From a virus, in IMG/VR virus record IMGVR_UViG_3300047551_000531, positions 1-41,868 of that record: a stretch of DNA of 41,868 nt; one strand, written 5' to 3'. The notes under the pieces are model-generated. The model worked only from the letters and a program-made list of their open reading frames with translations, was not told the DNA's origin and made no database searches. The position numbers were made by a program, and so were the translations under genes. Each line of letters begins with the position of its first letter. Position 1 is the stretch's first letter. Positions 10,512-35,926 of the stretch are shown here, piece by piece.

Positions 10512-10535
10512 GATGAATCACCAGAAATGGTTTAC

Positions 10536-10559
10536 GGTGTGGGCGCAGCCCGTATCACC
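10536..10559 (-). promoter_or_regulatory. Imperfect hairpin in the capsid leader
   Basis: The 70-nt gap between scaffold and capsid genes holds GGTG-T-GGGC-gca-GCCC-gtat-CACC: a perfect 4-bp GC stem closed by a second 4-bp stem across a bulge. No T-run follows, so it is not a typical terminator. It could stabilise the capsid mRNA or be an attenuator or processing site. This is a weak, structure-only call. Confidence 0.35.
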
Positions 10560-10581
10560 AGCGCAGCCGGTTAGTTGCAGC

Positions 10582-17936: not shown

Positions 17937-18977
17937 TTACTCCCTGATTTGAATTGGCATGATGAGGTATGTCTGCTCTGTCATGCTAGTCGGCGTCAAC
18001 ACCACTGGGGTTGTTGAGCTGTTGGCTGACAGTGTAACAGTCTCCGCCGAGCGCATGGCTTTCAGGCCATCGAGCAGGTAGTGCACGTTGAACGCCCAGG
18101 TGCCGGTTGCGGTGCCTTCGTAGGTGATCAGCTCTTTGCCGCTGTTGGCATCGGCTTCGGCGGTGATAGCCAGAGCGCCAGCAGCGGCTACCAGTTTGAC
18201 CACTGAGTTGTGCGCCTCAGCGATCAACGCGACGCGCTCTAGGCATCGGGTAAACCGGTGCCGGTCCATGGTCATGGCGTGCTGGAAGGACTTGGGCATC
18301 AATGCCACCACGTCGGGGTACTTGCCATCGAGGATGCGGCTGTACATGACGATGCCATCACCGGCGTCGATGACCGCCTGCCCCTTGGCCGCCGCTACTG
18401 TCACCATCCGATCCTGCAGCAGCTTCATGGTCGCTGCCGGCAGCACCAGATCAATGCCATCGGGCAACGCCACAGGCACACGCATGAGCCGATAACCGTC
18501 GGTGGACTCCATGAACCCAGCGGCGAGGTGAATGCCCTGCAGGATCTGCTTGCTGCTGTCGGTGCTGACGGCTGCCATGCAAGCACGCACACCAGCGGTG
18601 AGGTCCAGCTCAGCGCTAGGAGCCTCCACAGCAGGCAAATCGGGATAATCCGCCGCATCCTGCACAGCAAGGCCATAGGAGCCGCTGGAAGCCGTCACAG
18701 CGCCGTCTGACAGGGTCACAGGCTCGCCGTCGTCCATGCGGCTCACAAGGCCAGCCAGCAGCCGATACGGCAGCGCCACGGTGCCGGGTGTGTCAACGGC
18801 TGCGGGAACGGTGACCGTGATGCCGAGGTCCAGGTTGAAGCCGGTGACGGTCATGGTGCCACCACTGGCGGCTACCAGACAGCAGGACAGGATCGGATGG
18901 CTGTTGCTGGTGCTGATGGCCGGCGCAATGGTGCGCAAGGCATGGCTGAGATCAGCCTGTGTGGTGATGAGTTTCAT
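17937..18977 (-). CDS. dnaN: DNA polymerase III sliding clamp (beta subunit) homologue
   Basis: This 346-aa protein resembles bacterial DnaN (about 366 aa). It has LSHALRTIAPAISTSNSHPI at the start and VTGFNLDLGITVTVPA in domain I. Around residues 160-175 there is STDGYRLMRVPVALP. The pattern YPDVVALMPKSFQHAMTMDR then FTRCLERVALIAEAHNSVVK marks domain III, and the end YLIMPIQIRE matches the clamp C-terminus. It would give the host or phage replicase processivity or act as a loading platform. It is encoded just upstream of TerS (4-nt gap), an unusual place for a replication gene. No phage DNA polymerase is visible, so it probably works with host Pol III. Confidence 0.92.
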   Translation of the reverse strand: MKLITTQADLSHALRTIAPAISTSNSHPILSCCLVAASGGTMTVTGFNLDLGITVTVPAAVDTPGTVALPYRLLAGLVSRMDDGEPVTLSDGAVTASSGSYGLAVQDAADYPDLPAVEAPSAELDLTAGVRACMAAVSTDSSKQILQGIHLAAGFMESTDGYRLMRVPVALPDGIDLVLPAATMKLLQDRMVTVAAAKGQAVIDAGDGIVMYSRILDGKYPDVVALMPKSFQHAMTMDRHRFTRCLERVALIAEAHNSVVKLVAAAGALAITAEADANSGKELITYEGTATGTWAFNVHYLLDGLKAMRSAETVTLSANSSTTPVVLTPTSMTEQTYLIMPIQIRE

Positions 18978-19174
18978 GATGCAGCTTCGGTGAGGATTGA
19001 AACCAGCCGGTTGTAGTCGGCTTCAAATGACGCGACCAGTTCAGCAGGGATGGGCTGCTGATCGTCTTTGGCATTGTCGCGGATCGCGGCAGCATACGCA
19101 AGCGCACGCTCCATGGCGTCATGGAGCCGGTTGATCACGGGTTGCTGCTTGGCTGCGATGTTGATGAGATCCAT
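18974..19174 (-). CDS. Small helical protein, 66 aa
   Basis: The protein reads MDLINIAAKQQPVINRLHDA and continues as an Ala/Glu/Asp-rich amphipathic helix pair ending SILTEAAS. The stop overlaps the DnaN start as ATGA. The start lies 40 nt inside the preceding gene. The family is unknown; the position suggests a replication accessory role. Confidence 0.6.
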   Translation of the reverse strand: MDLINIAAKQQPVINRLHDAMERALAYAAAIRDNAKDDQQPIPAELVASFEADYNRLVSILTEAAS

Positions 19175-19407
19175 GTGAGGGTGAAAGCAACAAGCTGCTC
19201 AACCAGTCGCCGTGGGATGTCACCACGGACACTGGCGAGCGCATCTGACACTAGGCGGTGATAGCCAGCAACGGTAATGCCACCATTGCAATTCGCAACA
19301 AGCGCGCGACTGCGGATCAACTCTGCCCGACTGATACCTGCCGCTGCTGCGGCCTGGTCGAGCACTGCCAGGTCAGCGGGCTCAAAACGGACTTTGACTT
19401 CCTTCAT
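19135..19407 (-). CDS. Ribbon-helix-helix-like DNA-binding protein, 90 aa
   Basis: The N-terminal part, KEVKVRFEPADLAVLDQAAA then AGISRAELIRSRAL, has the strand-helix-helix pattern of CopG/Arc-type proteins (basic beta strand, then two helices with SRAELIR). It is the first gene downstream of the iteron-like gap and could bind those repeats as an autoregulator or origin factor, which is an inference. The C-terminal 45 residues are of unknown role. Confidence 0.7.
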   Translation of the reverse strand: MKEVKVRFEPADLAVLDQAAAAAGISRAELIRSRALVANCNGGITVAGYHRLVSDALASVRGDIPRRLVEQLVAFTLTWISSTSQPSSNP

Positions 19408-19654
19408 AACGGTCCGAACGGTCGCCTAACGGTGGGCGTTCGGCCGAGATCGCCCGCCACCACTGGGCTGAGGCCCTAACCTAACACTCCTAACGCTAAA
19501 AAAGACATATACATACAAGAAGAAGCATCCCACCTACCCACTTACCTACGCCTTCTCTCTTATAGGGGGGCTCTTCCGAAAAACCGTTAGGACCGTTAGG
19601 ACCGTTAGTTTCCAGTCATACCAACGGTTTTCAGCCGAACGCCTCCGAACGGTC
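19408..19654. repeat. Intergenic region with ACCGTTAGG iterons, candidate origin/operator
   Basis: This 245-nt gap is the largest in the genome. Three tandem 9-bp units ACCGTTAGG start at 19583, 19592 and 19601. An inverted copy (CCTAACGGT) lies at 19425-19433. Two copies of the related CCGAACGGTC, inverted, sit at 19414-19423 and 19645-19654. A C/T-rich tract (about 19528-19565) and an A/T-rich stretch (19495-19518) lie between. Iterons next to primase-helicase and clamp genes fit a replication origin or a repressor operator. A minus-strand promoter for the packaging operon could also lie here. Confidence 0.65.
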
Positions 19655-32507: not shown

Positions 32508-32703
32508 CTGCACATCCAGGCAGACATACATCGTCATGACCAATCAACTTGACGATGGCACTATCGTAAGGCGTCGTCATTGCAAAGCCTGCGATCACCG
32601 GTGGTACACACAGCAACCAGCCGAAGTGCAGGTGCCGCGCTGCCTATTGCAGTGGTCCAATAAAAAGCACATCATCGCTATTCGCAACAATGATTCTTTG
32701 TGA
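32479..32703 (+). CDS. Zinc-ribbon protein, 74 aa (NrdR/Ogr-like finger)
   Basis: CPSC (residues 8-11) and CKAC (35-38), with RRRHCKACDHRWYT, form a four-cysteine zinc ribbon very like the N-terminal finger of NrdR (CPxC...RRRxCxxCxxRFxT). There is no ATP-cone. It probably binds DNA or RNA. It lies next to dCTP deaminase, so a role in regulating nucleotide metabolism is plausible. Confidence 0.78.
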   Translation: MPAIQIQCPSCTSRQTYIVMTNQLDDGTIVRRRHCKACDHRWYTQQPAEVQVPRCLLQWSNKKHIIAIRNNDSL

Positions 32704-33241
32704 CACCGAGATCCACGACCTCATCCAGCAGGGCATGGTCAAGCACTACCAGCCGGAACTGATCAACCCTGCCAGCCTGGATCTGCGGCTTGGCAATCTG
32801 ATCATGCTGGAATCGGTGGAATCACACCAGATGATTCCGCTGTCGATCCAGGACTACACAGCCGAGCATCCGTACCAGTTGGTGCCAGGGCAGTTCATCC
32901 TTGCGCAGACAATCGAGACTTTTGTCATGCCAGAGGATGTCGCCGGGTTGTTCTTCCTGAAGTCAAGTCGTGCACGAGAGGGATATGAGAACCTGCACGC
33001 TGGCTACGCCGATCCGGGTTGGCATGGCAGCGCGCTAACGCTGGAGCTGAAGAATGCCCGGCAGTTGCAGCCGCTGCCGATCTACCCAGGGTTGAAGATC
33101 GGGCAGATGGTATTCTTCCGCATGAGCCAACGCCCGGTGTTGAGCTACGCGTTGACCGGCAGCTACAACAACGATCAGCTTGTGTCAGCTTCCAAGCAGT
33201 TCAGCAGCCGCGGCCAGATGCCACGGTTCAACGCTGCATGA
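32690..33241 (+). CDS. dcd: dCTP deaminase / dUTPase-fold enzyme
   Basis: This 183-aa protein has LINPASLDLRLGN at the start and the active-site block LKSSRAREGYENLHAGYADP then GWHGSALTLELKN. S-S-R-A-R and the Glu in LTLEL match catalytic and binding residues of Dcd. The C-terminal YPGLKIGQMVFFRM matches the trimer strand. It converts dCTP to dUTP, feeding dTTP synthesis. Dcd versus bifunctional Dcd-Dut cannot be told by eye. Confidence 0.92.
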   Translation: MILCDTEIHDLIQQGMVKHYQPELINPASLDLRLGNLIMLESVESHQMIPLSIQDYTAEHPYQLVPGQFILAQTIETFVMPEDVAGLFFLKSSRAREGYENLHAGYADPGWHGSALTLELKNARQLQPLPIYPGLKIGQMVFFRMSQRPVLSYALTGSYNNDQLVSASKQFSSRGQMPRFNAA

Positions 33242-33424
33242 GCGCATCGCTTCACGCACCAGCCAATGGATTTGCGACCGCTGGCTGGCCTCTTGCTCAG
33301 CCAGCAACAGCGCATACTCCAGCAATGCGTTGTAGTCCTTTGCTTCATGTAGCTCACGCAACATTTGGGCATTGGCTGCGCCGTGAAATTGTGCTTCCAT
33401 TGTGTGAACCAGCGGATTCATCAT
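33185..33424 (-). CDS. Small helical protein on the opposite strand, 79 aa
   Basis: Reading from 33424 gives MMNPLVHTMEAQFHGAANAQ, then MLRELHEAKDYNALLEYALL and AEQEASQRSQIHWLVREAMR. This looks like a true helical protein, not a shadow, and it fills the 181-nt interval between dcd and sigma genes. Its ATG interlocks with the sigma ATG on the other strand, and its end overlaps dcd by 57 nt. I recall similar sequences in cyanophages but cannot name a function. Alternatively the interval is a sigma leader. Confidence 0.55.
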   Translation of the reverse strand: MMNPLVHTMEAQFHGAANAQMLRELHEAKDYNALLEYALLLAEQEASQRSQIHWLVREAMRSCSVEPWHLAAAAELLGS

Positions 33425-34307
33425 GTCTGACAGCATCAAGGATTACCTCAACAGTATCGCCAAGTATCCGCTGTTGACACCGCAGCAAGAGATACAACTT
33501 GGCAGACGTGTGCAGCGGTTGCGTGAGCTGCAGTCATTGGGTCGTGCGCTGACCAATGCTGAGCAACGTGAAGTGCGCAGTGGTGAACGTGCCCGGCAAC
33601 GGTTCATCCAGTCCAACCTGCAACTGGTCGTGCATGTTGCTCGCAGGTACGACAAACGTAATAACAAGACTATGGAGCTGCTCGACCTGATCCAGGAGGG
33701 CAACATCGGCTTAGCTCGTGCTGTTGAGCTGTTCGATCCAAGCCGTGGGTACAAGTTCTCGACTTACGCCTACTGGTGGATCCGGCAGGGCATCACGCGT
33801 GCATTGATCAGCAGCGATGCCATCATCCGACTGCCGATTGGTGTGCATGAGACGATGTACAAAATCAACCGCACGATCCAAGATCTTAGCCATCAGCTTG
33901 GTCATCAGCCAAGCATCACCAGAGTGGCAGAAGAGATCAACATGGACCCTAGCGAGTTGTCTAATCTACTCCGGCAAACCTATACAGTTACCAGCATTGA
34001 CCAGCAGATTGGCAACTCAGAAGGCCATAGCATTGTTGACACCATTGCGGACCCTAATGCAATGGACAATGACATCAGTCAAGATGTGCAGATCATGCTG
34101 CGTTATGTTGATGAGTATCTGGACGACAGGACCAGAGCGGTAATAGAAGCCAGGTCCTGCTACCCGGTCGTCACATGGGCGCAGCTTGAACGCGAGCATG
34201 GCATCTCAAAGGCAACCCTTAACGACATCTACAAACGCGGCATCAATCGCATCCGTATGCTGATGAGCAACCCTCTGGCGGACACTCCCCTTGGAGCCAA
34301 CAATTAG
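33423..34307 (+). CDS. Host-like sigma-70 family RNA polymerase sigma factor
   Basis: This 294-aa protein resembles cyanobacterial group 2/3 sigma factors. Region 1.2 (residues 3-35) reads DYLNSIAKYPLLTPQQEIQL. Region 2 (55-130) includes LLDLIQEGNIGLARAVELFD and GYKFSTYAYWWIRQGITRAL, intact for core and -10 binding. Region 3 spans about 136-195. Region 4 (225-282) is divergent: the usual LSRERVRQIE helix is replaced by ISKATLNDIYKRGINRIRML. It would redirect host polymerase to promoters with normal -10 and altered -35, probably late phage promoters. It is the last gene of the early block, facing the late block. Confidence 0.93.
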   Translation: MSDSIKDYLNSIAKYPLLTPQQEIQLGRRVQRLRELQSLGRALTNAEQREVRSGERARQRFIQSNLQLVVHVARRYDKRNNKTMELLDLIQEGNIGLARAVELFDPSRGYKFSTYAYWWIRQGITRALISSDAIIRLPIGVHETMYKINRTIQDLSHQLGHQPSITRVAEEINMDPSELSNLLRQTYTVTSIDQQIGNSEGHSIVDTIADPNAMDNDISQDVQIMLRYVDEYLDDRTRAVIEARSCYPVVTWAQLEREHGISKATLNDIYKRGINRIRMLMSNPLADTPLGANN

Positions 34308-34378
34308 GCGACACGGTGACACATGGCGTGTCTGCATCAATGGCATGTGCCGTGATCATGCACAAGACTGGCAAGCGC
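34308..34378. other. Convergent junction between early and late blocks
   Basis: This 71-nt gap lies between the tail-to-tail sigma and HNH genes. It holds a small perfect hairpin, GACAC-atggc-GTGTC (34318-34332), and a second weak stem (GCATG...CATGC). Neither has a proper T-run in the right place. It is the expected site for a bidirectional terminator, but the sequence support is weak. Confidence 0.4.
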
Positions 34379-34699
34379 TTATTTTTTATCATCAAATGTT
34401 GAATCAATCAACCAATCCTGAATCTTTAATACGCGATCAACAGTCCATGAATCTTGACGACTGAACCATTCGCGCCATTCTTCGCTGCCTTTTCTGCGGT
34501 TGCAATTGCGGCACGCTGGCACCAAGTTAGTTGTAACCGTAGCGCCGCCTTTATGGCGTGGCTTGACATGGTCTAAGGTGTCGGCTGATGCGCTGCAGTA
34601 TGCGCATTGATGACCCCATGCCTCAAAGATCTGCTGCCTGAATTGATGCTTTGCACTGCGCTTAGAAACGAGGTTAGAGCCATCAATCGAGTGATCCAC
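34379..34699 (-). CDS. HNH endonuclease
   Basis: This 106-aa protein has CAYCSASADTLDHVKPRHKG then TNLVPACRNCNRRKG: Cys pairs C-x2-C and C-x2-C around the DH of the HNH motif, with N and the final N-x3-K. HNH enzymes near terminase can aid packaging, but this one lies at the far end of the late block, so it may be a free-standing homing enzyme. It is read in the lysis direction and overlaps the 61-aa gene. Confidence 0.92.
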   Translation of the reverse strand: MDHSIDGSNLVSKRSAKHQFRQQIFEAWGHQCAYCSASADTLDHVKPRHKGGATVTTNLVPACRNCNRRKGSEEWREWFSRQDSWTVDRVLKIQDWLIDSTFDDKK

Positions 34700-34868
34700 G
34701 CAATTCGGGGATTGGTAGCACCTGAAGACTTAACCCCAGGATGTGATCATTTGACGGCGCTAGCTCAGTGAGCCGCGCTGCAAAGTCGTCGGATACCTCT
34801 CCCGGATCATCGTTGTCACTCTCAACGACGATGGTGTACTCGATCTCTAGTACGTACTGCCGCATCAA
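34683..34868 (-). CDS. Small hypothetical protein, 61 aa
   Basis: The protein reads MMRQYVLEIEYTIVVESDND then DPGEVSDDFAARLTELAPSN, with a beta strand followed by an acidic helix. It overlaps the endolysin stop by 4 nt and the HNH start by 17 nt. The family is unknown. Confidence 0.62.
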   Translation of the reverse strand: MMRQYVLEIEYTIVVESDNDDPGEVSDDFAARLTELAPSNDHILGLSLQVLPIPELRGSLD

Positions 34869-35926
34869 TAGTCCCAGCGCACACGAGGCCGGCCTTTGCG
34901 GACGCCAAGGTGCACGAATCCTTTAGGTGCGCCATAGCCTAGGCTGTGCGGCCAGTTCTTGTCGCACCATGCCTGGACTGCGTTGATGTCTGCACCTTGG
35001 ATGTAGAAGTCCACTGCACCGACGCTTGGCGCGTCGTAGAGGTGCTCGCTGCTGCTGGCACCGCCAACCGAGCGGTTGATCGCTGCCGGCCTGTAGCCGC
35101 TGGTGATCACCACTGGCTTGCCGCCGAACGCGCCGCGCACCCGTTCGAGGAACGCTGCCAGCTCGGCTGCGGTGTCTATCTGGTACTGGTGGTCAAAACG
35201 TCGCGCCTCCTGCCCGAGCGCAAACTCGCCTAGGGTGATGTGTGGCGTGATCCGTGCCGTAAACAGGCTGTTTGGCGACAGCTTGGCGGTTTGCTGCTCG
35301 ATGCCCCACAGGCGGGCTTCAGCCTGGCGTCGGCGCAGCAGGCCGGCCTCAACATTGGTGCCAGGGTTGCGGTACAGCAACAACGCCTCGGGTACCGCTG
35401 CCCAGTCCTTGTCCTTCAGCCGTTTGCTGATCGTCTCGAATCCGGTGGTGCCATAGAACCCGCTGCCCAGGTTGTAAGCAAAGCTGATGAGCGCCGATTG
35501 CTTGTCGCCGGGCATGGCATTCCAGAACGGCACGGTCGCCCGCAGCTTCTCGGCGATACGCTCGATCTCAAGGTCTAGCAGCCTGTTGGCGTCGATGACC
35601 GTGATCTTGTCGCCGCGTTGTACCTTGCGGCCGTCGCTGTACTTGGTGGTGCCGTAGCCGATGGTCCATGGCTCGGCGCCGCTGAGCGGATCGGGATAGG
35701 CCGACAGGTGGCAGCCCTCAAACTCTTTGATCAGCTTGGCCGCAGCATCGTAGTTGTGTACCTTGCCGCCTTGGCTCCATGTCTGAAACCATGGCTGATC
35801 CCTATTAAACAAATCAGGCGCAACCTTTAACAGCTCAGCTTCCAATTCAACGATCGCCGCCTGTTGATGCGGCAATGCCCTCCAGTACCGGAACAGGTCA
35901 CTGGGTTTGATCGGTGCTTTAGCCAC
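34865..35926 (-). CDS. Bifunctional endolysin: GH24 lysozyme + M15 peptidase
   Basis: This 353-aa protein joins two wall-cutting domains. A T4-type lysozyme (about 55-210) has Glu70, Asp79 and Thr88 in EGCHLSAYPDP...WTIGYG. A Peptidase_M15-type zinc DD-peptidase (about 225-350) has SGYRPAAINRSVGGASSSEH with His295, AVDF with Asp306, and FVHL with His339. No signal peptide is present, so release depends on the holin-like proteins encoded just upstream. The start is a GTG at 35926, overlapping the 46-aa gene by 8 nt. It should cut both glycan and peptide bonds of cyanobacterial peptidoglycan. Confidence 0.92.
   Translation of the reverse strand: MAKAPIKPSDLFRYWRALPHQQAAIVELEAELLKVAPDLFNRDQPWFQTWSQGGKVHNYDAAAKLIKEFEGCHLSAYPDPLSGAEPWTIGYGTTKYSDGRKVQRGDKITVIDANRLLDLEIERIAEKLRATVPFWNAMPGDKQSALISFAYNLGSGFYGTTGFETISKRLKDKDWAAVPEALLLYRNPGTNVEAGLLRRRQAEARLWGIEQQTAKLSPNSLFTARITPHITLGEFALGQEARRFDHQYQIDTAAELAAFLERVRGAFGGKPVVITSGYRPAAINRSVGGASSSEHLYDAPSVGAVDFYIQGADINAVQAWCDKNWPHSLGYGAPKGFVHLGVRKGRPRVRWDY

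Follow-up and report, generated by a model that had tools for sequence, protein, structure and literature searches.

Sigma factor genes occur in 65 of 153 cyanophages (PMC10452541), and those of KBS-S-2A (published as RpoD; PMC3751600) and S-LBS1 (PMC6157547) have been reported individually. The initial annotation of the locus described here took a host-like sigma factor to be uncommon in siphoviruses, but S-CBS1, S-CBS2, S-CBS3, KBS-S-2A, P-SS2 and S-LBS1 each carry one; nor are T4-like cyanophages limited to a small late sigma factor, as it had supposed, since S-CREM2 and others also have a sigma70-like factor. As summarized in PMC10452541, citing Sawa 2019, the S-CBS3 and S-CBS2 factors changed growth and metabolism in Synechococcus elongatus 7942, which, as far as that summary goes, indicates that cyanophage sigma factors act in a cyanobacterium. 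Like the protein studied here, KBS-S-2A CPKG_00011, S-CBS1 gp27 and S-CBS3 gp29 ('group 2 sigma', rpsD4) are full-length cyanobacterial-type factors encoded at or near the end of a rightward block, and in these three phages and in S-LBS1 the gene lies close before a convergent lysozyme gene.

Among other phages, SPO1 encodes a late sigma pair, gp34 and gp33. This phage-encoded late-gene factor, whose gp34 component is described in PMC9429907, differs from the present one in host and in sequence family. In T4, a phage sigma-like factor (gp55) and a small protein (gp33) direct late transcription by the host polymerase (PMC7892883). The phage considered here resembles T4 in encoding a sigma factor together with a small protein, and also a sliding clamp, although the homology domain of gp55 is limited to region 2 and gp33 occupies the flap, whereas the present sigma factor has a region 4.

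The window, which is the whole stretch of 41,868 nucleotides that was analysed, represents on its protein sequences a cyanosiphovirus related to KBS-S-2A, with TerL and capsid proteins 80% and 79% identical to those of that phage and an endolysin 69% identical to the S-CBS3 lysozyme. Most of the rightward genes between 22255 and 34464 have replication, recombination or nucleotide functions, including helicases, exonuclease VIII, a RecT-like protein, SSB and dCTP deaminase, and genes for HNH, endolysin and tail proteins are found in the leftward block that converges on them; we infer early and late blocks from this layout. The sigma gene had been described as ending its block, and it does lie at the end of the rightward genes, before the convergent lysis and structural genes, but an overlapping 57-residue ORF comes after it.

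The conserved upstream neighbour is the dCTP deaminase gene (32690–33241, rightward; Pfam DCD, PHROG 1663 and synteny). Next in order, before the sigma gene, is a conserved leftward ORF of 78 residues (33185–33421), of unknown function and with no match in Pfam or PHROG, which is divergent from the sigma gene and has its start codon one base away from the sigma ATG, so that any promoter directly in front of one of the two genes has to sit in the coding sequence of the other. Among the matches listed, this ORF is present in every relative with enough flanking sequence, mostly at 70–98% identity, and at 53% in two of them (L048 and L050). Downstream, the first convergent gene encodes an HNH endonuclease (34379–34699, leftward; Pfam HNH, 5.6e-12, and synteny), its 3′ end being antisense to the small ORF, and is followed by the endolysin gene (34865–35926, leftward; lysozyme and peptidase M15), at the start of the lysis and tail block. 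Those relatives among the matches listed that have enough flank share this arrangement, from dcd through the divergent ORF, sigma, the small ORF and HNH to endolysin; a 60-residue ORF before the endolysin gene is absent from some subclades.

Elsewhere in the genome, a beta sliding clamp (Pfam DNA_pol3_beta) is encoded at 17937–18977 on the leftward strand and is found in all nine relatives for which larger sequences were fetched. A 245 bp non-coding stretch (19408–19652, leftward) between the primase gene and a ribbon-helix-helix gene (19135–19407, leftward) contains repeated CTAACGGTC/GTTAGG units and TATAAGA and is likely to be an operator or origin. One relative (G012) has another repeat, GTTACGG/GTAAC, in place of CTAACGGTC/GTTAGG, so the repeat and the ribbon-helix-helix protein may have evolved in step. 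A conserved GC-rich hairpin-like sequence with CCGTAAACCATT (10512–10581, leftward) precedes the capsid gene and is also present in KBS-S-2A.

The sigma gene is an intact ORF (33423–34307, rightward) whose 294-residue product is a sigma70-type factor by its translation and by Pfam, PHROG, PDB and AF2 comparisons, and its coordinates and the quoted segments LLDLIQEGNIGL, YKFSTYAYWWIRQGITRAL and ISKATLNDIYKRG are as first annotated. Region 1.2 (residues 2–36; 33426–33530, rightward; Sigma70_r1_2, 2e-11), region 2, with core-binding and −10 recognition functions (residues 57–130; 33591–33812, rightward; Sigma70_r2, 4e-20), and region 3 (about residues 134–216; 33822–34070, rightward; Sigma70_r3, 2e-14) all score above the Pfam cut-offs, and the same three regions are matched in 23 of 23 relatives; the earlier description of a cyanobacterial-type factor with intact core-binding and −10 regions is thus borne out. 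The protein belongs to PHROG 351 (RNA polymerase sigma factor) and matches SigA and RpoS structures in the PDB (E to 1e-46). An AlphaFold model built from 30 relatives (mean pLDDT 76) superimposes on Synechococcus 7942 SigA with a Z-score of 19, and the alignments of the model and of the profile with SigA and RpoS run over the full length.

Relatives of this protein, at 57–100% identity, are encoded on at least 80 viral contigs. Among cellular proteins, the picocyanobacterial group-2-like factors of Synechococcus, Cyanobium and Prochlorococcus have the same order of regions, and region 2 is a median 65% identical to that of cyanobacterial factors; however, the best cellular match is only 41% identical over the full length, and region 4 identity is about 21% (the median against host region 4). 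When a tree was built without region 4, the family formed one clade (support 100/99), and a 92/91 branch placed it together with S-CBS1, KBS-S-2A and S-CBS3, apart from the cellular factors sampled, a grouping that long branches make tentative. Capture from a host had been suggested; a recent event of this kind finds no favour in either the cellular identity or the tree, and the phylogeny favours instead an old phage lineage shared with S-CBS1, S-CBS3 and KBS-S-2A. Picocyanobacterial-type sigma genes also appeared on Crocinitomicaceae and Blastopirellula MAG contigs (L152 and L161), which are probably contaminant contigs.

Region 4 (residues 222–283; 34086–34271, rightward) is where this protein departs from these other cyanophage and cyanobacterial factors. 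Overall identity to the S-CBS1, S-CBS3 and KBS-S-2A factors is 39–47%, with 57–66% in region 2 but only 11–19% in region 4, and these three proteins keep GVSRERVRQ or a close form together with an FGL-type turn, both of which the window protein lacks. No Pfam region 4 model matches the window protein, HTH_26 alone appearing, at 0.0026 and under its cut-off, whereas the S-CBS1 and KBS-S-2A factors match Sigma70_r4 at 2e-9. Eleven of 23 relatives do match Sigma70_r4 weakly (best 2e-5), which points to common descent with this domain; the profile of the window protein aligns through SigA region 4, and four helices are predicted at residues 220–232, 235–245, 252–259 and 263–282. An unrelated domain in the place of region 4 is rejected, given the weak Sigma70_r4 matches in relatives and the kept helices. 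The −35 recognition helix had been called replaced; its alteration is real, although replacement is a slightly too strong word for what is a heavily substituted region 4 helix.

In an alignment with 15 cyanobacterial-type factors the FGL turn and neighbouring residues between 4.1 and 4.2 are deleted from the window protein, and ISKATLNDIYKRG sits residue by residue at the place of V(S)RERVRQIE. A host factor of about 306 residues (L188, in the RCC307 genome at G001:C1:1574880) also lacks the FGL turn and keeps SRERTRQ, so this deletion alone is not unique to the phage family. In sigma70, R584, E585 and R588 read the −35 element. The helix with its N-terminal turn (residues 261–282, ISKATLNDIYKRGINRIRMLMS; 34203–34268, rightward; from the position table and AF2) differs from that of E. 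coli by R584→K, E585→A, R586→T, R588→N and Q589→D, such that the three reading residues are K, A and N. Among the matches listed there are 53 distinct family sequences. None has an acidic residue in place of E585, where T, S, A, G, V, I or N occurs instead, and none has arginine in place of R588, the residues there being Q, C, Y, H, S or N, whereas all 15 cyanobacterial factors compared retain both the acidic residue and the arginine. The equivalents of K593, K597 and R599 are arginine in 53 of 53. Thus the helix stays basic and keeps its form while its base-reading set differs, and since this state is common to all 53 sequences it reflects neither chance nor a one-off error. The base-facing residues also vary from subclade to subclade. 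Median dN/dS is 0.08 in region 2 (0.08–0.28 across regions 1.2–3), 0.29 in region 4 and 0.40 in the 4.2 helix–turn–helix; region 4 is therefore under purifying selection, although 4.2 is the fastest part of the protein.

The second component of the locus is an ORF that is newly described here. It encodes 57 residues (34291–34464, rightward), begins at TTG and overlaps the 3′ end of the sigma gene in the +1 frame; in some relatives it starts at ATG. It was detected by reading the other frames beyond the sigma stop codon in all relatives, and among the matches listed it is present in 77 of 77 with enough flank. In the literature searched, which covered few subscription papers, we found no earlier report of this overlapping ORF or of the altered region 4 helix. 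The small ORF is strongly constrained, with a dN/dS of 0.20 overall and 0.11 in codons that overlap neither the sigma gene nor the HNH gene. A separate viral search with the small ORF found a sigma gene directly upstream in 74 of 74 testable loci, none with an acidic residue at the E585 position, although these are largely the same contigs and not fully independent. The product belongs to phrog_36325, of unknown function, and its only homologues in 50,697 phage records are S-CBS1 gp25 and KBS-S-2A CPKG_00009. Each of these is encoded close downstream of the sigma gene without overlapping it; an opposite-strand ORF of 81 residues lies between the two genes in S-CBS1, and in KBS-S-2A an opposite-strand ORF overlaps the end of the sigma gene. 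Pfam gave no match to the 57-residue protein and Foldseek none that was significant; the S-CBS1 homologue matched DUF5680 at 0.002, under the cut-off. An AlphaFold model (pLDDT 80) has a beta-beta-beta-alpha-alpha fold, for which VIA-align gave an AP2 domain as its top row (Z 4.6, rmsd 3.4, 57 residues aligned) and also an integrase arm domain (Z 2.8, rmsd 2.0, 41 aligned); both matches are weak, and these modelled likenesses are a lead only.

We favour, at a probability of roughly 0.55, the interpretation that the gene encodes a cyanobacterial-type sigma70 factor of a phage lineage that directs the host polymerase to later phage promoters. Regions 1.2, 2 and 3 would dock the protein onto the host core RNA polymerase, and the holoenzyme would melt ordinary −10 elements; with the canonical TTGACA-reading residues gone from region 4, reading of that hexamer would be lost. 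Encoded where the rightward block ends, the factor would most likely divert the polymerase to promoters whose −10 element is normal and whose −35 element is absent or different, and the early-to-late switch already suggested for it seems a likely role. Searches for such promoters gave nothing distinctive. Hard-EM searches, with and without a spacer, of stretches upstream of 14 leftward and 10 rightward genes found nothing over shuffled sequences, neither a −10/−35 pair nor a single motif in the 14 leftward stretches beating the shuffles; the stretches were hand-picked and partly overlap small coding ORFs, which makes this a weak negative. A scan with the sigma-70 consensus scored at chance level, and TATAAGA, a conserved sequence ahead of the terminase/clamp operon, has a single occurrence. 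This absence of a late motif from the stretches searched might also be expected if the factor were an auxiliary regulator that mainly redirects host metabolism or stress genes rather than phage late genes, as might its cyanobacterial type and the effect of the S-CBS2 and S-CBS3 factors, which, on the account in PMC10452541, when expressed by themselves increased both growth and acetyl-CoA in S. elongatus 7942. We consider such a role unlikely, however, because the residues with which host factors read the −35 element are gone and because the cassette holds a fixed place in the family, next to the convergent lysis genes, whereas repeated gain and loss would be expected of a purely auxiliary gene. 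Alternatively, region 4 might read no bases, serving only to hold the polymerase or contact the DNA backbone, with the factor using a −10 or extended −10 element alone. The variation of the base-contact positions among subclades beside invariant basic positions 272, 276 and 278 would suit this, and the variation is as compatible with little or no base reading as with retargeting; the deleted FGL turn, the peak of dN/dS in 4.2 and the failure to find a −35 motif in the stretches searched point the same way. Yet dN/dS in region 4 is still well under 1, its four-helix form is kept in the model and an enriched extended −10 was likewise not found, and we regard a region 4 without base reading as improbable.

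What the small protein contributes bears on the cassette rather than on the sigma factor itself. Its direct co-encoding makes it a candidate accessory factor, and a cassette of sigma factor and partner is plausible from gene order and conservation. It is quite possible, though somewhat less likely than not, that the ORF is unrelated to transcription and overlaps the sigma gene through genome packing: it has no characterized homologue, and in KBS-S-2A and S-CBS1 it neither overlaps the sigma gene nor adjoins an altered one, and with region 4 canonical in those factors the ORF cannot have the specific task of making good its loss. Against packing alone, the ORF occurs in named phages only near sigma genes, and the constant upstream sigma gene in the separate search, mostly on the same contigs, also tells against it. 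A more elaborate arrangement would be a two-part promoter reader, in which region 2 reads the −10 element and the small protein, presumably in contact with the sigma factor, supplies or stabilizes the upstream recognition lost by region 4, perhaps as an AP2-like beta-sheet DNA reader; by analogy with T4, the co-encoded sliding clamp could link the factor to replication. We think this doubtful.

The present phage and KBS-S-2A, with capsid and terminase proteins about 80% identical, have −35 helices that nevertheless differ at nearly every base-contact position, and they form a natural pair for studying how promoter specificity changes in a sigma factor. Rules on length and start codon readily overlook the small overlapping ORF, which is a constant neighbour of the sigma gene across a large cyanophage family, and if it acts with the sigma factor the two would constitute another kind of two-part phage transcription factor.
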